DNA from: Gemmatimonadota bacterium | Lineage (GTDB): Bacteria; Gemmatimonadota; Gemmatimonadetes; Gemmatimonadales; Gemmatimonadaceae | NCBI GenBank assembly: GCA_003134685.1 | Contig: PLCA01000005.1 | Coordinates: forward strand, 310,001 to 374,000 | Length of the DNA: 64,000 nt | Direction of reading: 5' to 3' | In this document: in pieces, positions 5,885 through 39,899 of the stretch | How positions within the stretch are numbered: position 1 is the first letter of the stretch | Layout of the letters: each line of letters begins with the position of its first letter | Translations under genes and position numbers: made by a program | The notes under the pieces: model-generated | Told to the model about the DNA's origin: nothing | What the model saw: only the letters and a program-made list of their open reading frames with translations | Databases searched by the model: none

Positions 5885-6421
5885 TTACCGTTTGATCATG
5901 GTTGGAACGACGAAGCGCCAGTAGGGATGCGGACGGAGTATGTCGCCCGGCTTCGCCGCGTCCGCTACTTCCGTATTGTATTTGAGAATGAATGAACGCG
6001 GCGCGTTGAGCACATGTCCTCCGCCGGTCAATGGCTCGGCATTGCGCGGCGCCGTAACAATGAGACCTCGATTAGGCATGTCGACGGTCAGCTCATGATG
6101 AGCCAGAAAATCGAACCCTATTAGGACTCGTTCCTCGCCGGGGACGCAATGAACTTCGCGAGTGGAGTAATAGCCTTGCTTTTCGTAAATGGTCCAGGCA
6201 ACCACACATCGGTAGATCCGCGCCGTAGCACCTGATCCATCTCCGAAGGAAACATCCTCCTCGCCGATCGGCTGGATCTTGAGGGCGTCTACTACGTCCT
6301 GCGTGATGTACGTCCTGTGAGCGCCGGTATCGATGACCGCATCGTCGATCGTGCACGCCAAGCCGTCAGCGCGAAACGTGAACTGTTCAATAACCTCATA
6401 CCGATTGTGTTCTATCGCCAT
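5885..6421 (-). CDS. Retropepsin-like aspartic protease
   Basis: A 178-residue protein with the retroviral-type aspartic protease signature: AVIDTGAHRTYI (D-T-G-A, residues about 28-39) and the later hydrophobic-glycine strand VLIGFDFLAHHELTVD (about 98-113). One active-site Asp per chain implies a homodimer. There is no signal peptide, so it is likely cytoplasmic. Stand-alone bacterial retropepsins are found in many genomes with mostly unknown substrates. A tRNA-like structure lies 35 bp upstream on the same strand. Its 3' end abuts the methyltransferase relic. Confidence 0.75.
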   Translation of the reverse strand: MAIEHNRYEVIEQFTFRADGLACTIDDAVIDTGAHRTYITQDVVDALKIQPIGEEDVSFGDGSGATARIYRCVVAWTIYEKQGYYSTREVHCVPGEERVLIGFDFLAHHELTVDMPNRGLIVTAPRNAEPLTGGGHVLNAPRSFILKYNTEVADAAKPGDILRPHPYWRFVVPTMIKR

Positions 6422-6685: not shown

Positions 6686-6775
6686 TTTACAGAATTCGAT
6701 TTGTAGATGATTTTGGGCAGTCTGACGAGATCTGATCGTAAGAGCGTCAGCTACACTCTTCATGTGGAGGGTCGT

Positions 6776-8113
6776 ATGGGCGCTCAAACACGCGAGCGGC
6801 GAATCGTGTCCACCCAGAAATGGGCGATAAGCCCGCTTCTAGTTGCTTTGTGCCTCGTCATAGGAGCCGTGTCGGGCTCCGCACAGAGCCGAGTCAGGGT
6901 CAAGCCCGACATCAGCGACTGCCTGAATGTTCGGAGTCGACCCGAGACTTCATCTGCGAGCAAGACATGCCTTGCCCCGGGAACCGAGGCAGAGGTTAGG
7001 GATTCCGTTCCGTACTGGTTACGGATACGCGTTGATGGCGGCACCGTCGGCTGGGCCGCGAAGCGGTACCTCGTCGGGATTGAAGCCAGTACCCCAAGTC
7101 CTGCTGAGCCTTCTCCGGCGGTAGCGGCTCAAGCGAACGCGTGGCTCGAAGTGCATGTGGTCGACGTAGGCCAAGGTGATGGCATTTGGATTCACACCTT
7201 TGACGACAGTGTGCGCGGGAATGGCATGTTCGAAGGGAAAAACATTGTGATCGACGGCGGACCCGACGCCAGCGACGACAAAAACGAGATGCTCCACTAC
7301 CTCCAACGTCGCCTACCCGATGGATCGCTGATCGACGCTCTCATCATCACTCACCCGCACGACGATCACTATCCCGGCGCGGCAGGGGTTCTGAACCATT
7401 TCGAAATCTCTGACTACTACGATCCCGCGTATCCTAAAGAGGGTCCGAAATACAACAACTTCCTTGCCTTGGTGGGAAGTGAGATTGCTCGGGGCCAGCC
7501 GATACGCCTACACATGGGGAAGGCCCAGTTCGGAGTTCCCGATTGGGGCAGTGAGCTCAAGCCCGAGTTCCTCTACAGCTATCCTGGCAACCCGAGCGGG
7601 CTTGGTTCTGGCAACACCCTTGAGAACAACGCGTCAATCGTTCTGAAACTGACCTATGGCGACGTAAGTTTTCTGTTCATGGGCGATGCGGAAGGAAAGA
7701 ATCGCTCCGACCCTCCTACGACTCCAAAATACGCTGAGCGGATTCTCCTAAATGAGTTCCCGGCCTCACGACTAAAGTCGACGGTGCTAAAGATCGCTCA
7801 TCATGGGAGTGAGAGCTCAAGCACGCTCCCCTTTATTCAAGCTGTTGATCCTGAGATAGTATTGGTATCGTCCGGCCGGAAAGTGTTCGCGGGAACATTC
7901 ATACCGGATCGAAGCACGCTGCAACGATACTGTGCGCACAATCCGCGAATCAGGATTTACAGGACCGATCAGGATGATGAGGCTGAGCACCGGACAACGG
8001 CCGACGATCAGGACGGTGATAACATCGTGGTGAGAACAAACGGCAAGACAGTGCAAGTCCAAGCGTTCTCCAACGGGCATCCGCTTCCTGCACCAACGGC
8101 GTGCTCCCCATGA
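6776..8113 (+). CDS. Secreted SH3 and metallo-beta-lactamase (ComEC-like) protein
   Basis: With the ATG at 6776 (preceded by GGAGGG at 6766-6771) the 445-residue protein begins with a signal peptide ending near GSAQS. A bacterial SH3-like domain follows (DCLNVRSRPETSS ... VGWAAKRYL), then a metallo-beta-lactamase fold: THPHDDHYPG is the HxHxDH metal motif, with FMGDAEG and AHHGSESSS as later ligand-region motifs. The MBL part resembles the hydrolase domain of ComEC/Rec2 competence proteins, made here as a separate exported enzyme. A periplasmic or extracellular phosphodiesterase or nuclease is the likely role. A longer frame from 6707 has no ribosome binding site. The DUF2235 gene follows after 68 bp. 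Confidence 0.75.
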   Translation: MGAQTRERRIVSTQKWAISPLLVALCLVIGAVSGSAQSRVRVKPDISDCLNVRSRPETSSASKTCLAPGTEAEVRDSVPYWLRIRVDGGTVGWAAKRYLVGIEASTPSPAEPSPAVAAQANAWLEVHVVDVGQGDGIWIHTFDDSVRGNGMFEGKNIVIDGGPDASDDKNEMLHYLQRRLPDGSLIDALIITHPHDDHYPGAAGVLNHFEISDYYDPAYPKEGPKYNNFLALVGSEIARGQPIRLHMGKAQFGVPDWGSELKPEFLYSYPGNPSGLGSGNTLENNASIVLKLTYGDVSFLFMGDAEGKNRSDPPTTPKYAERILLNEFPASRLKSTVLKIAHHGSESSSTLPFIQAVDPEIVLVSSGRKVFAGTFIPDRSTLQRYCAHNPRIRIYRTDQDDEAEHRTTADDQDGDNIVVRTNGKTVQVQAFSNGHPLPAPTACSP

Positions 8114-10297: not shown

Positions 10298-10957
10298 TCA
10301 GTGGAACTGACTGAGGACGTCGTCGCTCCCATCGGTCAACCTCGTCGCCGGCGGGTTGAGTAGTTCGTCTCGTAATTCCTCGAAGACTCTATCCGCCCCC
10401 CAAGCCTGAGCGGCAGTAAATGCGAATCGACGCTGCTGATCCGCGGTCAACGGTCCCGTCGCCTTGTAGCCGAGGTCGTGATTCGCTTCAGACCAAGCAT
10501 GTTGGAAGAGTGTCTTCACTTGAAGTTCGAAAAAACGCGGGACGCTGTTACGGTCAATACTCGATGGAATTACATCGTCAGGTAGTGCCAAAATCCAATG
10601 CCGGCCAAAGTATCCGAACTCCCAAAATGAGTCCGGAACGTGATCCTTTCTTTCAACATGGCGAAAGTACCGGTCAATAACTTCCGCCACCTTATCGACA
10701 TCATCCGTGTAAAAAACGACTACTCTCGCCCCGATCTGGTCCTGAATCTGTTGAAGTGGAGCAGAGTATTTTGGGGCACCATCAGGGTGTAGCTTGGCCG
10801 CCTTGCTCGCAAAGCGAACTGGGTCTTTCGCTCTTGAAGAGATTCTATCAATGTGCGCCATATTCTCGAAATATTTTTCGAGTAGGGCTTCGAGCTTGGC
10901 CGCTACCGCCACTAAGGCGTCGAAACGATTCTCATAGGTATCCATCAGTCCGCTCAT
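10298..10957 (-). CDS. RelA/SpoT-domain small alarmone synthetase
   Basis: A 219-residue protein composed of little more than a RelA/SpoT nucleotidyltransferase domain. It has RISSRAKDPVRFASKA, IQDQIGARVVVFYTDD and FELQVKTLFQHAWSEANHDLGYK, which correspond to the substrate-binding and late conserved blocks of (p)ppGpp synthetases. No hydrolase (HD) or TGS/ACT domain is present, so it belongs with the small alarmone synthetases, some of which are toxins (toxSAS) that pyrophosphorylate nucleotides or tRNA. Its ATG overlaps the stop of the upstream 337-residue gene by 4 bp, so the two are translationally coupled. In the accessory context a toxin or defence role is plausible. Confidence 0.75.
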   Translation of the reverse strand: MSGLMDTYENRFDALVAVAAKLEALLEKYFENMAHIDRISSRAKDPVRFASKAAKLHPDGAPKYSAPLQQIQDQIGARVVVFYTDDVDKVAEVIDRYFRHVERKDHVPDSFWEFGYFGRHWILALPDDVIPSSIDRNSVPRFFELQVKTLFQHAWSEANHDLGYKATGPLTADQQRRFAFTAAQAWGADRVFEELRDELLNPPATRLTDGSDDVLSQFH

Positions 10958-11967
10958 TTTGTCTTTCTGAAGCGCTGATCGATCACAGTGCCTTCTGTTG
11001 TGTATCGTACTTTGTTTTCAGCCACTAGCCGCTCTGTTCGGAACACTTGGCTGAAGTTTGCATCCTCAGCCATTAGCATAGCCCCGTTGTCCAACTCCAC
11101 CGCGCGGTATAGCGCGTGTCTGTCGAACTCTGTTGCATCAAAACGAAAGCTTTCGGTCATAAGCTCTGGTCGTGGGTATGCATCCATGATTCCCTGTGCT
11201 GCAGCATCGGATAGACCGAGTCGTCTGACGATTGTTTGTGCCGATCTCGTTTTTCCGTCTTGCCCTCGCATTAGACTCGCGGCGGAGACAAGCTCTTGTT
11301 TTATTGCGGGCTCTATGGCCGCTCTCACCGCTGATCGCAATGCTTCCGCTAGTCGCCGAGTGCCCGCAGGACCGGTCGTCCTCAATTCTGAAAGAAGGAA
11401 CTCGCCGATCCAATACTCGGACAGGTCTCGCGGACCTGATAGTTGGCGATCAACTGCCTTACCCTCGACGAATCCAGCGTGCAGCGACTGAGTGGTGAAG
11501 ATTGCGCTCTTGTACGCTTTGGCATTCTTCATAAAAACGCGCTCCAAGAACTCGACAGAGAGCGTGTTCGCCCGCTCTTGCGCTACCACACCCTGATCGG
11601 CGGGAAATCGAGAAATCACAAGCGAGTGGCTATTGGTTCCCGACCCTTTCAACAGGAAAAGAAGACCTAACCCCGAACGGTTTGTGGTCACCATCTGCAA
11701 CCGCTCCGCGACTACTCGGCCGAGTGGGACTGATGGGGTCCGGGCGTATTCCTCAATACAATCGCGCAAGGGATTATTTTGGTTCCCGCCCGCGTCAGGA
11801 GAAAACACTATTTGGACATCGCACTCTTTGGGTGCGCGTTGGAAAAGGTCGTCCAGCATCTTGAAGAGCGAACCGCTTCGCGGTACGGAAGTTCCGCTGA
11901 CGGCGGGCTGTGGGTCCGCCTTCTTGGCGGGATGTACGAGAAAGCTATGAATGTCCGTAAGCTTCAT
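10954..11967 (-). CDS. Unrecognised partner of the alarmone synthetase
   Basis: A 337-residue soluble protein with no domain I can name. It has a glycine-leucine patch (GLGLLFLLKGSG, residues about 104-115), a helical middle and a C-terminal block FRFDATEFDRHALYRAVELD. There is no signal peptide or membrane segment. It is the first gene of a two-gene operon: its stop overlaps the start of the RelA/SpoT-domain gene. That layout resembles antitoxin-first toxin-antitoxin pairs, but antitoxins are usually much smaller, so a sensor or effector partner is equally possible. Confidence 0.6.
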   Translation of the reverse strand: MKLTDIHSFLVHPAKKADPQPAVSGTSVPRSGSLFKMLDDLFQRAPKECDVQIVFSPDAGGNQNNPLRDCIEEYARTPSVPLGRVVAERLQMVTTNRSGLGLLFLLKGSGTNSHSLVISRFPADQGVVAQERANTLSVEFLERVFMKNAKAYKSAIFTTQSLHAGFVEGKAVDRQLSGPRDLSEYWIGEFLLSELRTTGPAGTRRLAEALRSAVRAAIEPAIKQELVSAASLMRGQDGKTRSAQTIVRRLGLSDAAAQGIMDAYPRPELMTESFRFDATEFDRHALYRAVELDNGAMLMAEDANFSQVFRTERLVAENKVRYTTEGTVIDQRFRKTK

Positions 11968-18546: not shown

Positions 18547-21156
18547 TTGTCATCATCAGACGCGGCGCAGCGTCTAGCCGACATGCGGTCGCGCGTTGAC
18601 CTAACATGCTGCGTCGCTACCACCGACGGGCCCGGTTGGGTGAGTACGCTCTCCAATCTTGCCACTAGCGACCTAGGAGTTTTGGCTCTTCGCGGGCCGA
18701 ACGGGGTCTCGCTACGCGACGACGTCGGTCGGTCGAGTCAGGTCAGCGGTGATACGCCGGGACTATTGGTGCTCGGGCTTATCGACTACGCGTCTAAGCA
18801 TAGGGAGAGCATCGCCCTAGCCATTCCGCCGGTTGCCAGACATCTGCCGCTGCTTGCCATCGCTGCTCGCACTCTGGCCAAGACGCTAGCAGATGCCCTG
18901 GACGTGACGGGGCGTCACTTTCAAGGAGGCGTGTTATTCATCAGCCCAGATCTCGATATTCGAAGTCGATACTGCGATCTGTTTGTGGGCGGGAATCAAA
19001 TAGATGGAGTCCATCCCGGCAGCCGCCTCCGTCCTCAAGGGGACCGCGTACCGTTAACATCAGGTCGTCCGCTCAATGAATTCGGCGGAGTGTGTTTTTA
19101 TTTGCCCCGGGGCGAGCTTCCTGTACGGATAGACTTTAAGCCGTCGCTCGTTCTCATTGACTTGCGCTACTCGAAGCTCAATCGCCAGAAGCAGGTAGAC
19201 GTTCTCGCCTGGATTGCACGAGTCGCGGGCGGCGCTGGCGTGGTCTGCCTTTACTCCACTGGAGATTCTGAGACCAGAGATGTAATCGTGCAGGCGAAAC
19301 TGCGCGATTTCCCTCTCGACCAGTATGGAATTAGCGCGATCCGGAACAACGTACCGCGAGCCACGACGGCCTCCAAAGTTGGCGGTCTCGAAACGTCTCT
19401 AGACCTAGCGGTTGAGTTTCTGAACCGAAAGCACCGATTCGTGGAGGTGACAGCAGGTGGTGTCGAATCGATATTTGAAAATATAGGAACGATCCTAGAC
19501 TCACATTCCGTATCATCAAACCTAGATTTGCGCCGCGCCAGATGGCTCTTGGCCACAATGCGCCAGCTGCCGGTTCCCTTGCCCTGGTACGAACAAACTG
19601 CGTCGGCCGCTGGGCGTTCGACTCTGAGAAGAATGATCGCGCGCATTGGCGTGATGAGCCGGCACGAAGGTGACCTCGGTGCGGTACTCCAATCGCTTCG
19701 CGTTCAGTTTGATCTCTTGTACCGGAGCATGGATACGAGCAACGCACGCTCCGAAGCGTTCGCCAATACTCTTCGGGATTCCAAGCCAATGGCCGGGAAT
19801 TCCACGCTCGTCATTGCCCGGGACTCTACGGTCGCCAAAGCCATTCGCACTTGGATCGATTTGGATCAGTTTCCTGGCGAGGAATGGCTCGATCGCGTGA
19901 CAGTAATCTCCTGCGGTGACGTCTCTGCCGCCTCGGAGCGACGCTATTCAACTGCTCTCATATGCGGAATCCTCCCAAGAAGATACCGATGGATAGTTGG
20001 GGCGGCGCTCGCTGACGAAGTCATATTACTGACTTACCCTCACGAAACTGAGATGGCCGAGCGGCAGCTTCGCTCCTTTTTTCTTGACGCTACGCTCGAG
20101 GCAGCGCAGCGCCGCCGCGACTCAAGTCTCTCTGCAATGGGCTGCTCCGTTCGCCCAGAAAAGAGGTTAGTTAATGAGCTAATTCCCCCTTACGTTGTAA
20201 CTCTCCCTGCCAAAACTCGACCGTCCAAACCCAAAGGTGTTCCTGTTACACGTGTAACATCGCTCGCAGATTTAGCGGCGGCTGTGAAAAAAGTTAGCGT
20301 AAACATCGAAGCCGACACAAAGACCAGGCAAGATACAGAGGATCGCTCCTGGCGTTCGGATGGTGGTGACGATGAGACGCTTCGGGAGCTGGAGGTCGAC
20401 GACGACACTGTTGCTGTGGACAGTATCGAAGCGATCCGGGTAGACGGGTCCTCGGCCGGAAAGGGTCGCGGCTTCATCCTGCTAACTGCGACAATTGGCA
20501 TCGAGTGCGTGTTGGCGGAAAAACCGGACGATCTCACGACGGTGTTTCCAGCGCAGTTGGGCACCGGAGACGTTATGCTTCTGATGGAGGAAGGTGGGCG
20601 GACAGATCTCTTCGATCGCATAGTAGAACTCGCGGAAGGTTCGCCTCAGCTTGAATATCTGGGGAGTTTCCGAAAACAGTGGCGTGACGCACTCAAGAAA
20701 ATCGAAGCCCGCTCGGAGATTTCGTCCAGCCCAGATTACTTCGCGTTGCTGAGCCGATTGCAAGAGGCCGGAGCGCCAATCCAAAATTGGCAAACCGCTA
20801 GAAACTGGATCGTGGGTGTGACCATCGGTCCGGACGATAAGCGATCGATAGTGGCGATAGGCAAAGTCAGTGGTGTAGAAGCGCTCGTTCGAAACGCCAG
20901 CCAGTTCGATCAAGCGTTCCGAAAAATTCGCGGCATTCGACAGGGCATTGGGAGACAGTTGAGCGCGGCGATTCGGAGGCATTTTGCTCATTTTGCTACT
21001 GGAGTACCAGAATCCAATACCAGACTCGACGCTCGACTTGGTGTACCGTTGGATGAGCTCATCGAGACGATCGATTTTATGGAAGTTCTGAATGTTGCCG
21101 AAGAACCAGTAATGGCGTCGCCAGGCCGCATTGGACGTTTTACTCGCACATCATAG
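18547..21156 (+). CDS. drmE: DrmE-like DISARM protein
   Basis: An 869-residue soluble protein directly upstream of a drmA-type helicase. Its position and size match DrmE, the class-2-specific DISARM protein of unknown biochemistry. I see no Walker motif; the alternating hydrophobic strands and helices (e.g. LVLIDLRYSKLNRQKQVDVL, residues about 201-220, and TLVIARDSTVAKAIRTWIDL) suggest two Rossmann-like or helicase-related folds without intact ATPase motifs. The start is TTG at 18547, with AGGA about 16 bp upstream, so the true start may differ. The next gene begins 2 bp after its stop. The name rests on size and synteny and needs a profile search. Confidence 0.6.
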   Translation: MSSSDAAQRLADMRSRVDLTCCVATTDGPGWVSTLSNLATSDLGVLALRGPNGVSLRDDVGRSSQVSGDTPGLLVLGLIDYASKHRESIALAIPPVARHLPLLAIAARTLAKTLADALDVTGRHFQGGVLFISPDLDIRSRYCDLFVGGNQIDGVHPGSRLRPQGDRVPLTSGRPLNEFGGVCFYLPRGELPVRIDFKPSLVLIDLRYSKLNRQKQVDVLAWIARVAGGAGVVCLYSTGDSETRDVIVQAKLRDFPLDQYGISAIRNNVPRATTASKVGGLETSLDLAVEFLNRKHRFVEVTAGGVESIFENIGTILDSHSVSSNLDLRRARWLLATMRQLPVPLPWYEQTASAAGRSTLRRMIARIGVMSRHEGDLGAVLQSLRVQFDLLYRSMDTSNARSEAFANTLRDSKPMAGNSTLVIARDSTVAKAIRTWIDLDQFPGEEWLDRVTVISCGDVSAASERRYSTALICGILPRRYRWIVGAALADEVILLTYPHETEMAERQLRSFFLDATLEAAQRRRDSSLSAMGCSVRPEKRLVNELIPPYVVTLPAKTRPSKPKGVPVTRVTSLADLAAAVKKVSVNIEADTKTRQDTEDRSWRSDGGDDETLRELEVDDDTVAVDSIEAIRVDGSSAGKGRGFILLTATIGIECVLAEKPDDLTTVFPAQLGTGDVMLLMEEGGRTDLFDRIVELAEGSPQLEYLGSFRKQWRDALKKIEARSEISSSPDYFALLSRLQEAGAPIQNWQTARNWIVGVTIGPDDKRSIVAIGKVSGVEALVRNASQFDQAFRKIRGIRQGIGRQLSAAIRRHFAHFATGVPESNTRLDARLGVPLDELIETIDFMEVLNVAEEPVMASPGRIGRFTRTS

Positions 21157-21158
21157 AC

Positions 21159-24100
21159 TTGCGGATGACCGTCGATCTCCCGTCTGCGTCCGAAGATCAA
21201 AAGCAGCGCCTAGCCGAGCATTTGCTTCAGAGCGTCCTACAAGGCAGTAGCGGAAGAGACGGTCTCGACATTGTCGATAGCTCGCCATTTCGTTCCATTT
21301 TTGCGGGCGTTCTAGAATCCTACCGTGACAGTCCGGCAACTGGTTCCATGAGTAGCGGTGGAACTTCTCTCGGTCTGGATTTCCGGGTAAGACCGGATAG
21401 TTCGCAAACTGCAATCACGTTGCGAATCGGAAGCAGGTGGAGCCACTACTACCCGGTTTTTCCGACATGGGACCAAGTCGTTCAAGCGAGCGGCTATCAG
21501 AGGGTCGACTCTGCGCAACAAGCGGAGGCGCTTTCCGAACCGGATGATGACCTCGAGGACTCCGGCGAGGATGTGACGGATCTTCAAGACGAGGTGTCGG
21601 GCTCGACAATCAACGATTCGCCTCTGCGTGGGCGGATAGTATTGCCTCGGATATTTCGCAGACAAACTGTACAAGCCAGTCCGATCAACGTTGTTCTCGT
21701 CGCGAATACGCGAGACGTTATCGTTGGTGAAGGTGAGATCGGGAAAGCTTTGGCCGACGTCCGGTCGAAAATAGCGTCTGATCCGGCTCGATGGCGGCAC
21801 TTGTCTGAGCCTCAGAAGAACGAAAGGGAGCTTGGGGATGCCGAACTTCTGTCTTCGCAAGCGAAGTACGACGCAGCCCTCAAAGCAATTAAGAATCCGC
21901 ACGTTAGACTCCCTGCGTGGGCTGTTACCATTTCTGTTGACTGCCTTCCTGATGCGTCGGAGGATGGCATTTTACGCATCCGGATTCTGCTGACCAACAG
22001 GACGCCCAGCCGCGAGGAGACGCCAAACCCGAAGGAGGGTGAACGGCCGCTCTTAGTTGAGCCGGATCTAAACCTGCAAGAGCGCGCTCTATTTGATGCG
22101 GGGCTTGAGGTCTCGCTGACTGGAGCGTCTGTAGTTCCTTTCGAATTCCTACTCGCGCCGACGGATTATCGCGTTCACCCGCGAATGATCGCCAAGGGAA
22201 TCAATTGTGTCGCAATCGCTTCCACTGATCCCTTACTGACGCTCCGCACGGAAGCGTCCCCCATTTTTCGCCAGCCCCTCTATCGGGCGAGGAGCGAAAT
22301 CGAAGTCAGATTCGATCAGCTGCTCGGCGATTCCTGGAATTCGGAACTCCCGAGCGTTTCAGAGAAGATGTCTAGTTACCTCGAACACTGGGACAATTTC
22401 CTCCGCTCACCGGAGGCCAACGCGTTTGGCGGCGCCGGTCTGGCCGCGTGCCGAGGCGATCGGGATCGATTTCTCGCGGAAAAATTACGGTTTGACCTGG
22501 GGCTCCAGTGCCTGCGGAATGACAATCGGCTTGCGCGAGCGTTTGGCTTGATGAACGCCGCATTTAATCGGCTTGGAAAGGCTTCCGGGGGTCGAATTGT
22601 CGCGTGGCGGCTATTCCAAATCTGTTTCATCGTTTCACAGCTACCTTCGCTTGCGGTCCGAGAACTCGATCCAAAATCTACTGGCGACTACGCTGACGAA
22701 TTGCGCGCCGCTGCGGCTGAAGTCGGGATCCTATGGTTTCCAACTGGGGGAGGGAAGACAGAGGCGTATTTGGGATTAATTGCTACTGCTCTGTTGTACG
22801 ATCGCTTACGTGGCAAGACTCGAGGCGTTTGCGCATGGATGCGGTTCCCGCTTCGAATGCTATCCCTTCAGCAGCTCGAGCGGCTTGGTCGCGTCATAGG
22901 CGTGCTGAACACGCTTCGAGCCGAAACTCCGGAGATCTCGCACGGTGACCCATTCGCCATCGGCTATTACGTGGGTGATGGAGTGACCCCAAACACCGTT
23001 TCTGACGAGGATATGAGACGGTTTGAGCGGGATCGAAACTATCGAGAAGAAAAGCGGCTGCTTCGGAAATGCTTCTTTTGCACGGCACCAGTGGAAATTC
23101 AAGCTGATAGGCGGGCTTGGAAGCTGGCTCATGTCTGCACGAACGAGCAGTGTTTTTCAAACACAGACGATTCCATGGGGCACTATAAGGGTTCGTTACC
23201 CGTTTGCATTGTCGATAATGAGATCTATAGGTATTTGCCATCGGTTCTCGTCGGTACGGTTGATAAACTCGCAATTGTCGGCAGAAATCGGAGTTTCGTA
23301 CACCTTGTGCGTGGCGTAAGTCAGAAGTGCCCCATACACGGCTACGCCTCCTACGACGAGTGCATAGAGAGATGGAGCGGTTGCAAGACGCGACCAAAGG
23401 GCATGGTCTCTCTTGCGAACATAAAAGACCCGGGCCTCTCACTCTTGATTCAGGACGAATTTCACCTACTTCGTGCCGAGTTGGGAGTGTTCAACGGACA
23501 TTACGAAGGGCTGCTTCAGTATTTGGGTGAGAAGGCTTTCATGGCGCCAAAGATTCTTGCTGCCACAGCGACCATAGAAGCATATGACACCCACGCATTC
23601 CATATCTATCTGAGCAAAGCACAACGTTTCCCTCAGCCCTCTTGGCAGGCGGGAGAGTCGTTCTATGCTACGAGCACGCCCGCGCGGCAGCGTCGCTACT
23701 ACATCGGTATCCGGTGTCACACTAGGTCCGTCGAGGATCTGAGCCTCAGGATTCTCGATCTCTATCAGTCGGAGGTTCGCCGTCTCAGGAATGATCTTCC
23801 TCGCGCTGTCGATATACTTGGGGCGCCCAAGCTCTCAGAAAGCGAAGCTGCCGCCGCTCTTAGGCTCTACGACCTCTCTCTTGTGTACGTCAACAAGAAG
23901 GCAACCGGGGGGAGCATTTACGACAAACTAAGTCGACTGGAGCAGCAATTCGCACAAAATGGTTGGGGAACTATCACGGCGAAGCTGCTGACAGGTGATC
24001 AAAGTGTCGAGGAGGTGGGAGCGACGATCGAGCGGATTGAAGCTGAGAAGGAACCAACCGACGAGCGATTGGATGTCGTGATCGCGACCAATCTGATTAG

Positions 24101-24764
24101 CCATGGAGTCGATCTCGAACGGATAAATATGATGTGCGTTGCCGGCATGCCCTCGCACTATGCGGAGTATGTGCAGTCAACGAGCAGAGCAGGGCGGTCG
24201 CATCCTGGATTGGTTTTTGTCTGTTTCATGGCGAGAGACCCGCGCGAGCTGTCACAATACGAGTTTTTTCCAGCCATGCATGAAAACATGGACCGACTCA
24301 TTGAAGCAGTAGCGGTCAACAGATTTGCTACTTTTGCCCCCAGAAAAACCGTTCCTGGGTTACTCGCTGGTGTCTTATTGTGTGAGACCACTCCACGCCT
24401 CTACTCGGCTAAGAAGATCAAGCGACCTCTAGAACACGTGCCCACATTGAAATCGGCGCTCGGTATTTCAGCAACCCCTGGAACTGAGAGCGGCTGCGTG
24501 CGACCGGAGGAACTCGTAGACGCAATCGAGCAAATAATCGGGGTGGATGGCAAGAACCCGCTTGTTAGCGAGTCGCAAGCGGGAGTTGTTCGAGGGGAAG
24601 TCGTGGGCACCGCACGTGACTGCATCGACGCGATCGGAAGAGCCCTCGAGCCACAGCTAAAGGATATCTTGCAGCCACTTACTTCGTTCCGGGACGTTGA
24701 CGAAGGTCTAGAGTTCGGAAGCGTGTCATCTGCGACCATTGTCACTCGCTTGAGAGCCAGATAG
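21159..24764 (+). CDS. drmA: DrmA-type DISARM helicase
   Basis: A 1201-residue SF2 helicase. Motif I is WFPTGGGKTEA (residues 526-536), motif II QDEFH (765-769), motif III AATATI (801-806), and motifs V-VI ATNLISHGVDL and QSTSRAGR (1006-1013). A Cys-rich insert lies between motifs I and II (C638-x2-C641, CTNEQC, then QKCPIHG), suggesting zinc binding. This layout, with a long N-terminal region before motif I, is that of DrmA, the conserved DISARM ATPase thought to act with DrmB on incoming DNA. TTG 21159 or ATG 21165 are possible starts. The gene sits 2 bp after drmE, and its stop overlaps the drmB start by 1 bp. Confidence 0.8.
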   Translation: MRMTVDLPSASEDQKQRLAEHLLQSVLQGSSGRDGLDIVDSSPFRSIFAGVLESYRDSPATGSMSSGGTSLGLDFRVRPDSSQTAITLRIGSRWSHYYPVFPTWDQVVQASGYQRVDSAQQAEALSEPDDDLEDSGEDVTDLQDEVSGSTINDSPLRGRIVLPRIFRRQTVQASPINVVLVANTRDVIVGEGEIGKALADVRSKIASDPARWRHLSEPQKNERELGDAELLSSQAKYDAALKAIKNPHVRLPAWAVTISVDCLPDASEDGILRIRILLTNRTPSREETPNPKEGERPLLVEPDLNLQERALFDAGLEVSLTGASVVPFEFLLAPTDYRVHPRMIAKGINCVAIASTDPLLTLRTEASPIFRQPLYRARSEIEVRFDQLLGDSWNSELPSVSEKMSSYLEHWDNFLRSPEANAFGGAGLAACRGDRDRFLAEKLRFDLGLQCLRNDNRLARAFGLMNAAFNRLGKASGGRIVAWRLFQICFIVSQLPSLAVRELDPKSTGDYADELRAAAAEVGILWFPTGGGKTEAYLGLIATALLYDRLRGKTRGVCAWMRFPLRMLSLQQLERLGRVIGVLNTLRAETPEISHGDPFAIGYYVGDGVTPNTVSDEDMRRFERDRNYREEKRLLRKCFFCTAPVEIQADRRAWKLAHVCTNEQCFSNTDDSMGHYKGSLPVCIVDNEIYRYLPSVLVGTVDKLAIVGRNRSFVHLVRGVSQKCPIHGYASYDECIERWSGCKTRPKGMVSLANIKDPGLSLLIQDEFHLLRAELGVFNGHYEGLLQYLGEKAFMAPKILAATATIEAYDTHAFHIYLSKAQRFPQPSWQAGESFYATSTPARQRRYYIGIRCHTRSVEDLSLRILDLYQSEVRRLRNDLPRAVDILGAPKLSESEAAAALRLYDLSLVYVNKKATGGSIYDKLSRLEQQFAQNGWGTITAKLLTGDQSVEEVGATIERIEAEKEPTDERLDVVIATNLISHGVDLERINMMCVAGMPSHYAEYVQSTSRAGRSHPGLVFVCFMARDPRELSQYEFFPAMHENMDRLIEAVAVNRFATFAPRKTVPGLLAGVLLCETTPRLYSAKKIKRPLEHVPTLKSALGISATPGTESGCVRPEELVDAIEQIIGVDGKNPLVSESQAGVVRGEVVGTARDCIDAIGRALEPQLKDILQPLTSFRDVDEGLEFGSVSSATIVTRLRAR

Positions 24765-26725
24765 TGCGGAACGAGATGAGGCGCGGCCGCACGCAGGTGC
24801 TGTGGCGCTATATGCCCGGTGCGCTTTTCCGCTATAACGAGAGCGGTGGGTGGAGCGAAACTAGCTCGGTAGGCCTGAAAGACACGCGACCCCTGTCGGG
24901 CTCCTTGAAAAGTGCGCTGACAGCGGCACTTCATCGATGGAAGGCAATAGGCGTCACAGGTTACCCCGATCCCGACCTACAGGGTCATAAGTACATCGTT
25001 GGGGAGCCGTTGCACGTGATGTACGACGCGTGGCCACTTGTATTCCTGTGCCGGAATTGCGGCCGCGTTCAATACTACAGGGACATCGAGGCGCTTCGTA
25101 ATAGCAATGATCGGCTGGGCTGCCCTACATGCAAAGGGCGCGACCAGCTCAGACAGATTCCGTACGGTTACATCTGCGAGTGCGGGCGAAAAGATACTTT
25201 GTTCGTGCCGCGGTGCCCGCGAGATAAGACCCATTCGATCGCACTCGTTAACAAGAGAAGCTTCCAAGAGTCCTATTGGATTTGTCAGGTCTGCAGAACT
25301 CCTCTCCGTCGCGGATCGCGAGAGGGTCTGGGTTATAGGAGGTGCGATTGCGCACCAAAAAAGGGGATGCGAGGAGTGCCTCTGGAGGACAGCCGGGCTT
25401 TCTACTCCCAAACGATTGCGCTGGTGGATATTGATTCTCCCTCGCTTGAACGGTGGTATAGTAATCCCCACTTCTCCGATCTCCTGTTAGAGGCGGCTAT
25501 CGGAGGTGAAGCCTACAAACCTAGTGATCTCATCTCGCTCGCAAACTGGAAGCCGTCGGGCGACGGACTTTCTCCGGAGTTGAAGGCTACTCTCGATGCG
25601 ATGATAGAATCAGGCATCGACCAGGCACAGGCCGAAGCAATTATAAGACAGGGATCCAAAGCAGGCGGTGCAAACCCATGGGTACGATACACGCAGAGCG
25701 CTAACGCGATAAAAGACCTATCACCCAGTCGGAACTGGGCGCAGGTTCGGCGAACGGTCGAATACGTTTTTGTAAGAGACGAGCCGTCGATTGCCGCTCT
25801 TCCGCTCGTTAAACTTGCGGAAGAGGCGGAGTCGGCAGGGGATCTAGAGTCCGCCAGCAGATTAAGAGCAGACAAGCAGTTGGCGAACCAAATGGGCTTC
25901 GCGAGCTTGGCCATTGTACGGTCGCTCCCGATTCTGTTAGCAGGGTATGGCTTTACGCGTTATTTCGGCACTCCTCGTGACGGATCGGACGAAGCTGGTA
26001 GCACGGCGACTACAGTGTCACTTCGCCCGTTCCCCCCAGACAACGGAAAGATTCCGATCTATGCGGTGCGCAATAATACCGAGGGCTTGTTATATGAGCT
26101 CGATCCCTGGAGGCTCTCAGCTTTTGTCGAGACGAATTCCGACATTCAGGTGCCGCTCGCTGCTTGCGCGACGGACTCCACCATTCGAGCATGGCTTCTC
26201 GGAATCTCGCCCGGCAATGTCACTGAGGGCGAATCTCATTTAAGGCTTGAGTCCTGGGAAATGGAAGGCGGGAAAACCGTGGAACTTGGGGGCGCACTCG
26301 TCTTTGGCGTCGTACACACTGTCGCACATGTTCTGAGAGCATCGGCTCATAGGCACGTTGGCATTGACGCTGACTCGCTCGCCGAATACCTGTTTCCCGC
26401 GCATGGTAGCGGCCTCATCTACGTATCCTCTCATGTCGAATTCACACTTGGAGGAATCGACTCTGTTTTTCGATCGAACCTTCGCCAGTGGTTGGGATCG
26501 GCGCTAGATCACGCTGGCCGTTGCTCGCTGGACCCAGTTTGCACGCATGCCGGCGGTGCTTGCCTTGCCTGTTTGTATCCTAAGTTCGGATGTCCGCACT
26601 TTAACCGAACAGTGAGCCGAGCCTTTCTGTATGGTGGTGAAGTGCGTGGCTATGATCGACGCCTTGAAGGCTACTGGACACCAAGTGTTCAGAAACGCGC
26701 CGAAGAACTTCGGACCCGAGCATGA
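24764..26725 (+). CDS. drmB: DrmB-type DUF1998 protein
   Basis: A 653-residue protein starting with GTG overlapping the drmA stop. The N-terminal part has several Cys pairs (FLCRNCG, CPTCKG, CECG, CQVC, CDC), indicating zinc ribbons. The C-terminus is the DUF1998 pattern: VVHTVAHVLRA, HGSGLIYVSSHVEFTLGGID and CSLDPVCTHAGGACLACLY. DUF1998 is the DrmB hallmark. In DISARM, DrmA and DrmB form the core complex that blocks phage DNA without relying on methylation status alone. Translational overlap with drmA supports a complex. Confidence 0.8.
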   Translation: MRNEMRRGRTQVLWRYMPGALFRYNESGGWSETSSVGLKDTRPLSGSLKSALTAALHRWKAIGVTGYPDPDLQGHKYIVGEPLHVMYDAWPLVFLCRNCGRVQYYRDIEALRNSNDRLGCPTCKGRDQLRQIPYGYICECGRKDTLFVPRCPRDKTHSIALVNKRSFQESYWICQVCRTPLRRGSREGLGYRRCDCAPKKGMRGVPLEDSRAFYSQTIALVDIDSPSLERWYSNPHFSDLLLEAAIGGEAYKPSDLISLANWKPSGDGLSPELKATLDAMIESGIDQAQAEAIIRQGSKAGGANPWVRYTQSANAIKDLSPSRNWAQVRRTVEYVFVRDEPSIAALPLVKLAEEAESAGDLESASRLRADKQLANQMGFASLAIVRSLPILLAGYGFTRYFGTPRDGSDEAGSTATTVSLRPFPPDNGKIPIYAVRNNTEGLLYELDPWRLSAFVETNSDIQVPLAACATDSTIRAWLLGISPGNVTEGESHLRLESWEMEGGKTVELGGALVFGVVHTVAHVLRASAHRHVGIDADSLAEYLFPAHGSGLIYVSSHVEFTLGGIDSVFRSNLRQWLGSALDHAGRCSLDPVCTHAGGACLACLYPKFGCPHFNRTVSRAFLYGGEVRGYDRRLEGYWTPSVQKRAEELRTRA

Positions 26726-26747
26726 TTCGCAATCCTACAGCACAGGC

Positions 26748-27812
26748 ATGAAAAGAAGCCAAAGCAAGCATGAACTAGACATCCCCTCTTGGGCGAAGCG
26801 CTCAAAAGGCCTGGTGGCGGAATACGCGACTGATCTTGGAGTGGCGCTCGTCGGAGATAGTCAATCTGTCCTTGAGAGCGCGGCCGTCAGTGAGTTGCTT
26901 GGTCGAGTCCAGCTGATATTCACTTCTCCGCCCTTTCCATTGAATCGGAAGAAGAAGTACGGCAATCTCTCAGGCCTTGAGTTTCGCAAGTGGCTCAGGG
27001 GCTACGCGAACAAACTCCGGGCTCTATTGACACCAGACGGATCGGCGGTCATCGAGATGGGTAACGCGTGGGAGCAGGGAAGTCCGGTGATGTCCACCCT
27101 TGCTCTGGAAACTTTACTCGCTTTCAAGAAAGCCGGCAGTTTTCATCTATGCCAAGAATTCATCTGGTTTAACCCGGCAAAACTCCCTACACCGGCGCAG
27201 TGGGTAACAATCGAAAGAAGCCGTGTTAAGGACTCATTCACTCGGCTTTGGTGGCTGAGCCCGACGACGCATCCGAAGGCTGACAATCGACGCGTGCTTC
27301 AGCCGTATAGCGGCTCGATGAAATCCCTCCTGCAGCGCCAGAAGTACAATTCTGGTCGTCGGCCGTCGCAGCACGTGATCAGTCGCCGTGGGTTCCTAGT
27401 CGACAATGGCGGCGCGATTCCGCCGAACGTTCTGCAACCTTCCGAGGAGGAAACTCTGGGCAGCCTTCTTATCGAAGGGAATACTGGTAACAGTAGTTCG
27501 TATCATCAGTACTGTCGGGCACTCAAGCTCACTCCGCACCCTGCGCGGATGCCGATCAGCCTCGCAAAATTCTTTGTCAACCTTTGCACGGAACCGGGGG
27601 ACTTAGTGCTCGATCCGTTTAGCGGGAGCAACACCACTGGGGCAGCCGCCGAACTTCTCGGAAGGAAATGGCTATCGATTGAAGCCGAGGCGGAATATGC
27701 GCGAGGCGGACGAGGGCGCTTCCCAAGAATATGGACCAAGACAGAGTTGCGTGTCACCTCTCAACACGACGTGAACATGAAGGAGACAGGCCGTTCTCGG
27801 ACTCCTGTTTAG
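26748..27812 (+). CDS. Beta-class DNA amino-methyltransferase
   Basis: Starting at the ATG at 26748, 22 bp after drmB, the protein has 354 residues. Motif IV, TSPPF (residues 59-63), comes before motif I, LDPFSGSNTTGAA (from about 288), an order that marks the beta class of amino-methyltransferases (N4-cytosine or N6-adenine; SPPF leans to N4-cytosine). The middle is the target-recognition region. It occupies the methyltransferase slot of the DISARM-like cluster, but the known class 2 enzyme (DrmMII) is a C5-cytosine methyltransferase, so the pairing with a DrmE-like protein is unusual. A longer frame from 26631 would overlap drmB by 95 bp. Confidence 0.75.
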   Translation: MKRSQSKHELDIPSWAKRSKGLVAEYATDLGVALVGDSQSVLESAAVSELLGRVQLIFTSPPFPLNRKKKYGNLSGLEFRKWLRGYANKLRALLTPDGSAVIEMGNAWEQGSPVMSTLALETLLAFKKAGSFHLCQEFIWFNPAKLPTPAQWVTIERSRVKDSFTRLWWLSPTTHPKADNRRVLQPYSGSMKSLLQRQKYNSGRRPSQHVISRRGFLVDNGGAIPPNVLQPSEEETLGSLLIEGNTGNSSSYHQYCRALKLTPHPARMPISLAKFFVNLCTEPGDLVLDPFSGSNTTGAAAELLGRKWLSIEAEAEYARGGRGRFPRIWTKTELRVTSQHDVNMKETGRSRTPV

Positions 27813-29575: not shown

Positions 29576-30085
29576 ATGGCCCGTCCTCCGGTTCCCTACG
29601 ACGTGGCCGTCCGAGTCTACTTTCGTGACGGCTGGCTCTGCTCACATTGCCGCCGGCCAACCGTATTTCACCTCGCGCTCAAGCTGTTGGCCGAGCGGGT
29701 AACGCAGGCGCTTCCGCACGCCCATCTCGCATACTGGGACGAACGATGGCGCCGCGACCAGTCCCCCCTTCTCGATCAGCTCGCGGCCTCAATCGACCAT
29801 GTCCATGCCTTCTCCAAGGGTGGTGAACATGGGGAAGCCAACTTCGCGACCATCTGCGTCAAGTGTAACCTGCGCAAAGGCACGCGGACGCGGGAGGAAC
29901 ATGCCGCGGTTGATTCACCCCGCCGCGTGAAGGGCAAGTATGGCGAGCCGACCGCTTGGGACGGCCTCGCGTTCACCTATATGATGCTGGCGCGAGAGAG
30001 CACGCGTCCGCTCACGGCAACTGAGAAAGGGTGGTTGCGGGCCTTGGAGGCATGGTACGATACGCGGCTCGCTAACGAACGCTGA
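29576..30085 (+). CDS. HNH endonuclease
   Basis: A 169-residue protein with an HNH nuclease core: paired cysteines CSHC (residues about 22-25), IDHVHAFSKGGEHGEANF (about 74-91) containing the catalytic His and Asn region, and CVKCNLRKG (about 95-103) completing the zinc site. About 45 residues are inserted between the first Cys pair and the DHV motif. There is no secretion signal. HNH proteins of this kind act in restriction, homing or mobile elements; in this island, DNA cutting in defence is plausible. No operon partner. Confidence 0.8.
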   Translation: MARPPVPYDVAVRVYFRDGWLCSHCRRPTVFHLALKLLAERVTQALPHAHLAYWDERWRRDQSPLLDQLAASIDHVHAFSKGGEHGEANFATICVKCNLRKGTRTREEHAAVDSPRRVKGKYGEPTAWDGLAFTYMMLARESTRPLTATEKGWLRALEAWYDTRLANER

Positions 30086-37572: not shown

Positions 37573-37645
37573 GCGCCGTTAGCTCAATTGGCAGAGCAAA
37601 TGACTCTTAATCATTAGGTTGCAGGTTCGATTCCTGCACGGCGCA
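37573..37645 (+). tRNA. tRNA-Lys (CTT), integration target
   Basis: Acceptor GCGCCGT/ACGGCGC, anticodon arm AATGA-CTCTTAA-TCATT with anticodon CTT, T arm GCAGG-TTCGATT-CCTGC, discriminator A, no encoded CCA. Its 3' part from 37615 is repeated exactly at 39867-39899, so the present 3' end is the attL side of an integrated element. Confidence 0.92.
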
Positions 37646-37673
37646 CTCCTAAGTGAGTGAGACGGCACGACTT

Positions 37674-37703
37674 ACGGAGCACCCCCAAAAGGTGCTCCGT
37701 TTT
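37674..37703 (+). terminator. Terminator after tRNA-Lys, element side
   Basis: ACGGAGCACC, 7-nt loop, GGTGCTCCGT then TTT. Confidence 0.7.
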
Positions 37704-37741
37704 CGTTACGGTTTGGTTGCGGTCGGCGCTGCTTTTCTTGC

Positions 37742-37963
37742 TCATTCGGGACCTCCATTTCCAGCTCGTTTCTTGTCCGCTTCGGCGCGCCCGGCCACGG
37801 CGAGCACCATCCCGAATCCCTGCATAAAGGCAGCGACAGCCTCCTGCGGCCAGTGCGCCAGTTCGCTCAGATCGATCGCCGCATCGACCTGAATGCGAAT
37901 CACGTTTTCGGGCGGCCTTGGGAGCGAGTCGCCAGGGAGGTATAGTTTCCGTTTCCCGCTCAT
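37742..37963 (-). CDS. Small protein of the integrative element
   Basis: 73 residues, MSGKRKLYLPGDSLPRPPEN ... LSELAHWPQEAVAAFMQGFG. No helix-turn-helix is evident, so an excisionase is only a guess from size and position. Its ATG overlaps the recombinase stop by 4 bp. Confidence 0.6.
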   Translation of the reverse strand: MSGKRKLYLPGDSLPRPPENVIRIQVDAAIDLSELAHWPQEAVAAFMQGFGMVLAVAGRAEADKKRAGNGGPE

Positions 37964-39090
37964 TCCTTCGCCTCCTTCGCGTTCTTGTCGAGTCGCTCGA
38001 ACGCGTCCTTCACGCGCACGTCCCGCTTCTTCAAATAGGTGTTCGCTTGCCTCAAATCGGTGTCCCCGATCGTCAAAAGCGCGAGCGCTGGATCTCCCGT
38101 CTCAGCGTTCACATCGCCCACTACTTTCCGCCTGAGACCATGGCCGCCGCGGCCCTTCTTCACCTCGACGCCTGAACGCCTCTCAGCGCCCTTGAGCGCC
38201 GACCAGAGGCTCTGGATGGTGTAGACCTCGTTCGCGTTCTTGGAGGAACCGGCAGGGATGATCCACGGCCCTTCGTACTCGTTCTTCGCTCTCCACTCGC
38301 GCGCGACGCGGAGCGCTTCCCGGGTGGCGTCCCGGATCGGCTGCGTCCAATCGTGGCCCATCTTATCCCACTGCGGCTGCCAGGTGATCACACCGATCGC
38401 CTCGTCGACGTCGGCCCACTGGAGGTGCAGGACAGCGCTCTGCCGCGTGCCCTGGTTGGCGCAGATCGTAAGCGCGACCCACGGCCGCCACTGCGTCGCA
38501 CTCGCAGGATCGAGCGCGGCGAGGATCTTCGCAGTCTCGTCGGCCGAGTACTCCGCCGGCGCTTCCGGGCGCTCGTCGCGCGACACCTTGAAGCGATAGA
38601 GATGGAGCCGGTTCCGATCGATCAGCTCGTTCGCCTCGCCCCAGGCGTACACCATCTTCACTGTCCGGATCGTCCGGCTGATCGTGTTGGTCGCGAGCCC
38701 GAGCTTGGTGAGCGCGGCCCTAAACTCGTGCATCATCGCGAGCGTGGTGTCTTCGACGATGAAGTCGCTGCCCCAGATCGCTATCCACTTGGCGAAGTAT
38801 TCCTTGTAGAGAATCTTCGTCCTGGCGCGGAAGTGCGGGAACTCCGCTTCGGCGAAACGGTTCCAGAGCTCGCGGACCGTGATCCGCTCTTTCGCGTTCG
38901 GCCGGATGCGCGCCTCGGCGACGCCCTTGGCGAACGCTTTGGCGCTCGCGCGCCCTGCCGGCGTGTTGGGATAGCTCTCGGTCCGGAGCCTTCCTCTGAC
39001 GCGCCACTGAACGCGCGCGAGCTCCCCCTCGGTGAAGACCCGGATCTTCGCTCGCTTGGCCCCGTATTCGGCGATCGTGACGCGCGTCAC
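37960..39090 (-). CDS. int: Tyrosine recombinase (integrase)
   Basis: GTG at 39090 overlaps the HNH gene's TGA and gives 376 residues; the longer open frame upstream only shadows the HNH gene. The N-terminal arm-binding and SAM-like core-binding parts (FAEAEFPHFRARTKILYKEY) precede the catalytic domain: GTRQSAVLHLQW (box I Arg), GHGLRRKVVGDV (H-x-L-R-R box) and ANTYLKK (nucleophilic Tyr). It catalyses site-specific integration, here into the tRNA-Lys 3' end 0.3 kb away. Confidence 0.85.
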   Translation of the reverse strand: MTRVTIAEYGAKRAKIRVFTEGELARVQWRVRGRLRTESYPNTPAGRASAKAFAKGVAEARIRPNAKERITVRELWNRFAEAEFPHFRARTKILYKEYFAKWIAIWGSDFIVEDTTLAMMHEFRAALTKLGLATNTISRTIRTVKMVYAWGEANELIDRNRLHLYRFKVSRDERPEAPAEYSADETAKILAALDPASATQWRPWVALTICANQGTRQSAVLHLQWADVDEAIGVITWQPQWDKMGHDWTQPIRDATREALRVAREWRAKNEYEGPWIIPAGSSKNANEVYTIQSLWSALKGAERRSGVEVKKGRGGHGLRRKVVGDVNAETGDPALALLTIGDTDLRQANTYLKKRDVRVKDAFERLDKNAKEAKE

Positions 39091-39686
39091 TTGAGTCCGC
39101 CCGCAGCTGCTCGACGTCCGGCTTCGCGGGCAGCCGAGAGGTTTGGCCGCGGCTCGAGGTTCTCGAGATCGACGTTCAGCTTGTCGCGGTCCTTGAAGAA
39201 GAGCGCGTAGCCAGGCGGCACCGGCCCGTTCGCATCTTCCCACAGGACCGTGTGGAGCGCCTTCCACCCCAGCGCGCCATGCTCGAAGCTGATGCGCATG
39301 TCGATGTATCCGTCGGTGTTCACGCGCAACGCGCCGAGCACGTAGAACTCGGGGTCGCGATTGGCGGGGAAGTGCCCCTTCTTGAATTGCGTTTCCTTCA
39401 TCCGCCCGGGCCCATAGCCAGGCCGACGCGTGCCCTTGTTCGCCGGCACGTGGCCCTTCGGGTAGCAGAAAGCCGCGCCGATCTTCTGACCGGGGCGGAT
39501 ACGACAAAACAGCCCGAGGAATTCCGGAGTCTTGTGCACGCCGATCTTGTTCGCGATCGCGTGCACCTTGCCGGTGGTGCGGCCGCGCCCGAGCTGCGCC
39601 GCGATCTCCGCTGTCGGGGTATGCGGGTACAGCTCGCGCACGATCGCCAGCTCCTGGGCGCTCCAGAGGCGGCGGTTCACCACCAC
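39087..39686 (-). CDS. HNH-type endonuclease with N-terminal Myb/HTH-like domain
   Basis: 199 residues. The N-terminus (WSAQELAIVRELYPHTPTAE then IAAQLGRGRTTGKVHAIA) looks like a SANT/Myb or MerR-like DNA-binding helix set. The C-terminal half has the phage-type HNH core: WKALHTVLWEDANGPVPPGY then LFFKDRDKLNVDLENLEPR. Such proteins are common as free-standing homing-type nucleases in phages. First gene of the element's operon; it may promote spread or exclusion, which is inference. Confidence 0.75.
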   Translation of the reverse strand: MVVNRRLWSAQELAIVRELYPHTPTAEIAAQLGRGRTTGKVHAIANKIGVHKTPEFLGLFCRIRPGQKIGAAFCYPKGHVPANKGTRRPGYGPGRMKETQFKKGHFPANRDPEFYVLGALRVNTDGYIDMRISFEHGALGWKALHTVLWEDANGPVPPGYALFFKDRDKLNVDLENLEPRPNLSAAREAGRRAAAGGLK

Positions 39687-39866
39687 ATCCCCACCTGCAC
39701 GAGCAGGTGCATCGGCCGGTCGTGGATCGAAGGAACTTCGATTACGTTCCCGTTACGGTTCCGATTGCCGTTTCTTGGGGATGCCGGTTGGCTTCCCAGC
39801 AGGTTGGCGGTAGTTTTGAGAGGGAGAAAACGGGAAAGGCGTCTCTCAGAATCCGTCCTTAACGAG

Positions 39867-39899
39867 TAGGTTGCAGGTTCGATTCCTGCACGGCGCACT
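39867..39899 (+). repeat. attR copy of the tRNA-Lys 3' end
   Basis: 33 bp identical to 37615-37647. CTTAA of the anticodon loop is also present at 39858-39862, but the next four bases differ, so the crossover lies within the anticodon-stem/T-arm part. Confidence 0.85.

Follow-up and report, generated by a model that had tools for sequence, protein, structure and literature searches.

Within a 64,000-nucleotide stretch of a Gemmatimonadota bacterium genome (contig PLCA01000005.1, positions 310,001 to 374,000 of the forward strand; hereafter the window, whose coordinates are used throughout unless a locus label precedes them), we analyzed a four-gene operon that resembles the anti-phage system DISARM. 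An earlier note, made from the sequence alone, had described four tightly packed genes at 18547-27812, and we located all four open reading frames (ORFs) there on the + strand: a drmE-family gene (18547..21156, 869 residues, TTG start); drmA, encoding a superfamily 2 (SF2) helicase (21159..24764, 1201 residues); drmB, encoding a DUF1998/MZB protein (24764..26725, 653 residues); and a gene for a beta-class amino-methyltransferase of the M.PvuII type (26748..27812, 354 residues from its likely ATG). The longest methyltransferase ORF, 26631-27812, gives 393 residues from its first ATG. The ATG at 26748, 22 bases past DrmB, is the more likely start, because the 39 extra residues are unmatched in relatives and would overlap DrmB. 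With this start the genes lie head to tail in an operon-like arrangement, with intergenic gaps of 2, -1 and 22 bases. None of the four frames contains an internal stop, and the helicase and methyltransferase motifs are intact.

By sequence, the helicase is DrmA and the protein encoded next to it is DrmB. The former matches the PADLOC DrmA profile (2.9e-110), and Serratia DrmA is by far its strongest match among solved structures (7s9v_A, 3.8e-62). Both features that the note had picked out in this protein are present: the WFPTGGGKTEA motif begins at residue 526, with the Walker A motif GGGKTEA at residues 530-536 (22746..22766, +), and a Cys-rich insert follows at C638-C641...C660-C665 (23070..23153, +). 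The further helicase motifs QDEFH, AATAT, ISHGVD and QSTSRAGR were also found. All four cysteines of the insert are invariant across three relatives, and we predict a zinc-binding module in RecA1, which fits the modules reported in RecA1 of DISARM helicases by Bell et al. (PMC12458937). Serratia DrmA V1296, a proposed methyl-sensing valine, falls outside the region that can be aligned with the window protein. We assigned DrmB from its match to the PADLOC DrmB profile (1.7e-30), its place in a separate gene abutting drmA, and a weak match to solved Serratia DrmB (7s9v_B, 0.0014, from a two-row profile). The note's description of this protein as DUF1998 needs a correction, as the Pfam MZB (DUF1998) match itself is weak, at 22.2 bits just below the cut-off of 24.2; NCBIfam DrmB_fam gave 42 bits against a cut-off of 240. 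A C-terminal Cys cluster (C587-C593-C600-C603-C610; 26522..26593, +) is kept in both aligned rows.

The 869-residue protein belongs to the DrmE family. The note had staked its reading on a match to DrmE profiles, and two were passed: NCBI DrmE_fam (NF038316, 136.3 bits, cut-off 80) and Pfam DrmE_C (PF24957, 61.8 bits, cut-off 27), the latter over residues 656-811 (20512..20979, +); the DISARM_DrmE equivalog was not reached. Profiles of three and 12 rows gave no convincing match between the DrmE sequence and solved structures. An earlier full-length structure model was poor (predicted local distance difference test, pLDDT, 44.5; low Foldseek TM-scores), and residues 20-520 alone (18604..20106, +) folded better in AlphaFold, with pLDDT 63 and a predicted template modelling score (pTM) of 0.62. 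The best Foldseek matches of this region were the SF2 helicases LGP2, RIG-I, Dicer and Hef (E 1e-8 to 1e-5, TM-scores 0.3-0.4), and VIA-align gave Z up to 12.6. By this model, the first ~500 residues of DrmE would adopt a fold like that of SF2 helicases. In our own reading of the family alignment, GKT is missing at the P-loop place, which is mostly proline, and an aspartate but not DEXH is retained at the Walker B place. Because the sequence has no P-loop, DrmE is predicted to be a non-catalytic helicase, a lead drawn from a model of middling confidence, and it might perhaps parallel the class 1 SNF2 helicase DrmD.

The note had assigned the methylase slot to an amino-methyltransferase, which our results sharpen to an enzyme of the M.PvuII type. 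The protein matches Pfam N6_N4_Mtase well above cut-off (PF01555, 115.9 bits against 26.7) and carries the TSPPF motif that the note had reported, a motif IV of the N4-cytosine type at residue 59 (26922..26936, +). Motif I, DPFSGSNTTG, lies C-terminal to it at residue 289 (27612..27641, +), as in the beta order. A profile built from the window enzyme and the two related enzymes at DISARM loci, run against solved structures in the Protein Data Bank (PDB), found the N4-cytosine enzyme M.PvuII (1boo) at 1e-87 over profile positions 28-321 of 324, with the next structure at 2e-14. The window enzyme is 41% identical to M.PvuII of pPvu1 (Proteus vulgaris), so that beta motif order, a TSPP(F/Y) motif IV and full-length homology all agree with M.PvuII-type membership. 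Since the enzyme is of this type, our best prediction is that it makes N4-methylcytosine rather than N6-methyladenine.

A C5-cytosine methyltransferase (PF00145) was found neither at the locus nor anywhere in the host assembly, which is 98% complete, whereas 10 of 14 control genomes have such an enzyme. The sequenced part therefore holds no DrmMII that could act from another site. The remaining amino-methyltransferases of the host are encoded either on different contigs or, ~26 kb upstream, within a type IIG-like cluster that includes RmrT/RmrA. We considered the Eco57I-type methyltransferase of that cluster as the DISARM methylase and rejected it as part of a type IIG-like pair beside RmrT/RmrA. 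Past the M.PvuII-type gene come a 390-residue membrane protein with no relatives in 80 genomes and then, 1.76 kb on, a 169-residue HNH protein. The HNH protein shows no significant similarity to PvuII or to the HNH partners of the L036 and L037 loci; similarity is limited to the HNH core and no conserved link was seen, and we set aside the idea that its gene, at 29576, encodes the endonuclease of the methyltransferase. Endonucleases diverge fast, however, and an unrecognized one may be present. The count of CAGCTG in the window (23 observed, 26 expected) is uninformative.

To place the operon among its relatives, we scanned one genome per species. Two close DrmA relatives came from metagenome genomes, one in Chloroflexota (L004, DrmA 55% identical) and one in Omnitrophota (L003, 47%), where the contig ends within DrmA. 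DrmE lies beside the core in both (40% identity to the window protein in L004, 31% in L003), and a methyltransferase of the same kind as that of the window adjoins it in both (58% and 53%); the DrmB of L004 is 54% identical to that of the window and is followed by a small PLD protein that is likely DrmC. Synteny in close relatives, which the note had named as a test, is thus seen in two other phyla for the DrmE-DrmA core and the methyltransferase, and in L004 also for DrmB. The gene set is uncommon: no further full-length matches appeared in 400 Chloroflexota or 193 Omnitrophota genomes; viral contigs held no relatives of DrmE, DrmA or DrmB, and a tblastn search of plasmids with DrmE found none. 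The note had called the locus unusual in composition, which is true of the gene set and of the bases: GC content at third codon positions (GC3) is 0.57-0.61 in the four genes and 0.74-0.79 in two downstream flanking genes. The low GC3 fits horizontal acquisition, and DrmE was found in none of 18 congeners searched; from these two results together we take the operon to have been acquired.

We compared the histories of core and methyltransferase in trees of small samples (19 and 24 rows), with several long DrmA branches and a DrmA bootstrap that is not fully settled. DrmA of the window, L004 and L003 forms one clade (100/100), whose sister is a Streptomyces locus, L007, with a different amino-methyltransferase carrying DPPY (95/95), and next comes a locus from Rubrobacter (98/95). 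A separate DrmA clade (100/100) holds three loci in which a GNAT-ABC protein adjoins DrmE, and C5-bearing loci fall elsewhere. Partner labels on the DrmA tree show the minimum possible number of changes, with none of 200 shuffles as low, and the DrmB tree agrees with the DrmA tree for the two copies available. All three DISARM methyltransferases fall within one eight-row subfamily (100/99). Their co-inheritance with the core was rejected, a single clade of the three giving p-AU 0.004 in the approximately unbiased (AU) test, and with a tree off that of the core the methyltransferase looks like a swapped-in rather than a co-inherited partner. Because the three enzymes do not form one clade and their genes sit at opposite ends of the core, the core probably kept an N4-type partner through at least two uptakes or replacements of the partner gene, all drawing on one subfamily; this would also account for the altered gene position. 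The L003 enzyme pairs weakly with one from a viral contig, where a GHKL-like gene adjoins it (L026). More generally, same-subfamily M.PvuII-like enzymes stand beside ResIII/PLD helicases or GHKL ATPases at L030, L077 and L026, perhaps marking further unnamed defence systems.

Taking DISARM class definitions from PMC9252829 and PMC9142583, we compared the locus with known systems. It shares with class 2 a DrmE-family protein, split DrmA and DrmB, and the E-A-B order of the C5-bearing loci L049, L050 and L009, and differs in having an N4-type enzyme instead of a C5 enzyme, no DrmC, and a DrmE recognized at family level only. PADLOC type II DISARM needs DrmA, B, C, E and MII (PMC9252829); because DrmC and DrmMII are missing from the locus, we did not file it as class 2. 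With class 1 (DrmD, DrmMI, DrmA, DrmB, DrmC) it shares a DrmA and DrmB homologous to Serratia DrmAB (7s9v), but no match to DrmD or DrmMI was listed for the locus genes and DrmE is present, placing it outside that class. The idea of a class 1/class 2 hybrid raised in the note fell away, as nothing ties the methyltransferase to the class 1 enzyme. The methyltransferase is homologous over its full length to that of the PvuII system of pPvu1, and unlike it partners a DrmEAB core, with no adjoining PvuII endonuclease or controller. The helicase belongs to the same wider family as those of the YprA-helicase systems ARMADA, Druantia and Dpd (PMC12458937), but here helicase and DUF1998 protein are separate genes, as in DISARM, and no BrxHII/PglX partner was seen. 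These comparisons lead us to describe the locus as a class-2-like variant of DISARM, with N4-methylcytosine as its predicted self-mark. Our literature search found no paper on DISARM with an N4-cytosine methyltransferase.

Overall, gene identities, intact motifs, a conserved neighbourhood and phylogenies make it likely that the operon is a DISARM-type anti-phage system gained by horizontal transfer, closest to the DrmE-bearing class 2, with an M.PvuII-type methyltransferase in the methylase slot. Several observations weigh against that reading. DrmA and DrmE stay under their equivalog cut-offs (371.8 against 950 in NCBIfam for DrmA; 40.7 bits against 250 for DISARM_DrmE, NF038323), the DrmE fold was predicted from three aligned rows at a mean pLDDT of 63, and we found no PLD match to the DrmC nuclease among the locus genes and scanned neighbours, host PLD domains sitting on other contigs. 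Such loci number three in this sample, two of them from metagenome bins and one cut by a contig end. The methyltransferase gene lies downstream of DrmB in the window and upstream of DrmE in L004 and L003, the three enzymes are not one clade, and the window enzyme pairs (100/98) with one that has a ResIII helicase and a GHKL ATPase as neighbours and no DISARM core (L077). The shifted gene and the incongruent trees would also suit a DrmE-DrmA-DrmB defence core beside which an orphan or type II methyltransferase has landed without giving protection from it; mobile DNA often carries M.PvuII-like enzymes (2553 plasmid records), and the host has further amino-methyltransferases. We nevertheless find such a chance neighbour unlikely: each of the three cores in the DrmA clade, which spans three phyla, is adjoined by an enzyme from that one eight-row subfamily, M.PvuII-like enzymes at E 1e-40 occur in just 19 of 395 genomes of the phylum and exceed 400 bits only in this genome and one other, and no cognate type II endonuclease was recognized beside the methyltransferase.

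Motif IV and homology do not by themselves settle N4 versus N6 chemistry, which also counts against our reading. The enzyme might make N6-methyladenine, the locus then being a class-2-like DISARM that marks adenine as class 1 does; the Pfam and NCBIfam matches fail to separate the two chemistries, and the sister Streptomyces locus has its DPPY methyltransferase. With a TSPPF motif IV, and with M.PvuII as the sole full-length solved homologue, far above the adenine enzymes, we regard adenine marking as improbable. A decaying, non-working remnant that has lost DrmC and DrmMII would agree with the absence of both genes from the locus and of any C5 methyltransferase from the genome. We consider decay highly improbable, however, given four intact frames with catalytic motifs present, relatives with the same gene set that retain the same residues, and the dispensability of DrmC in published DISARM systems (PMC9142583).

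If the locus is the class-2-like variant that we favour, the methyltransferase would put N4-methylcytosine on a short motif in the host genome. In published DISARM, unmethylated DNA raises the ATPase activity of DrmAB and methylated DNA lowers it (PMC9142583), and by analogy with this methylation sensing we infer that N4-methylcytosine would serve as the self-mark. DrmA and DrmB would load onto incoming or replicating DNA without the mark, translocate, block it and possibly recruit a nuclease. DrmE, with its predicted helicase-like fold and no P-loop, may bind DNA or act as a scaffold for the complex, perhaps doing what the SNF2 helicase DrmD does in class 1. With DrmC missing from the locus, the DNA might be degraded by a nuclease encoded elsewhere in the host, of the PLD or another kind, or blockage alone might provide the defence.

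The setting of the operon looks like a defence island, given the RmrT/RmrA, type IIG-like, GHKL ATPase, LmuA-related metallo-hydrolase and RelA/SpoT-domain genes upstream. Farther out in the same genome, upstream of the window and ~21-28 kb from the operon, are type IIG-like restriction-modification genes in split form, with RmrT and RmrA after them (L019 768-7571). Within the window are a GHKL ATPase gene (3331-5382), an aspartyl-protease-like gene that matches PADLOC PDC-M08B (5885-6421, -), a gene for a protein with SH3 and metallo-beta-lactamase domains that matches LmuA (6707-8113), and a RelA/SpoT-domain protein gene overlapping that of a 337-residue uncharacterized protein (10298-11967, -), possibly a toxin-antitoxin or defence pair. 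On the other side, 32 bases of a tRNA-Lys 3' end are repeated at 39867; the repeats (37573-39898) flank a tyrosine integrase gene (37960-39507, -), an arrangement that resembles the end of an integrated element.

Other DrmE-bearing loci showed further partners. A protein with GNAT acetyltransferase and ABC ATPase domains stands beside DrmE at L017 (11877-13745, -), L018 (6635-9160, -; on the strand opposite DrmE, in overlapping frames) and L044 (5766-7928, +), and these DrmE-DrmA-DrmB loci may form a lineage of DISARM whose mark is not a methyl group. A UvrD-type helicase lies between DrmE and DrmA at L015 (10805-12610, +) and L016 (1938-3692, -), with a NERD nuclease domain in L016, and a DrmE-A-B locus at L043 (11825-13784, -) is adjoined by a C5-cytosine methyltransferase and an HhH-GPD DNA glycosylase. 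We hold one broader scheme as tentative and rather doubtful: DrmE-type DISARM would be a common chassis with lineages defined by self-mark (C5-methylcytosine, N4-methylcytosine, perhaps GNAT-ABC), the N4 effector would read N4-methylcytosine specifically, so that a lost or swapped methyltransferase is replaced from the same subfamily, and DrmE would everywhere be a non-catalytic SF2 helicase replacing DrmD.

The DISARM descriptions in the papers that we read name adenine and C5-cytosine marks only, and N4-methylcytosine would be a third, chemically different one. If our prediction is correct, DISARM machines may use more than two kinds of self-mark. The helicase-like fold, if right, would offer a structural idea for the role of DrmE and suggest a counterpart of DrmD. 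Because C5 and N4 methyl groups occupy different positions on the base, a third mark on the same core would make it testable whether and how DrmAB senses methylation.

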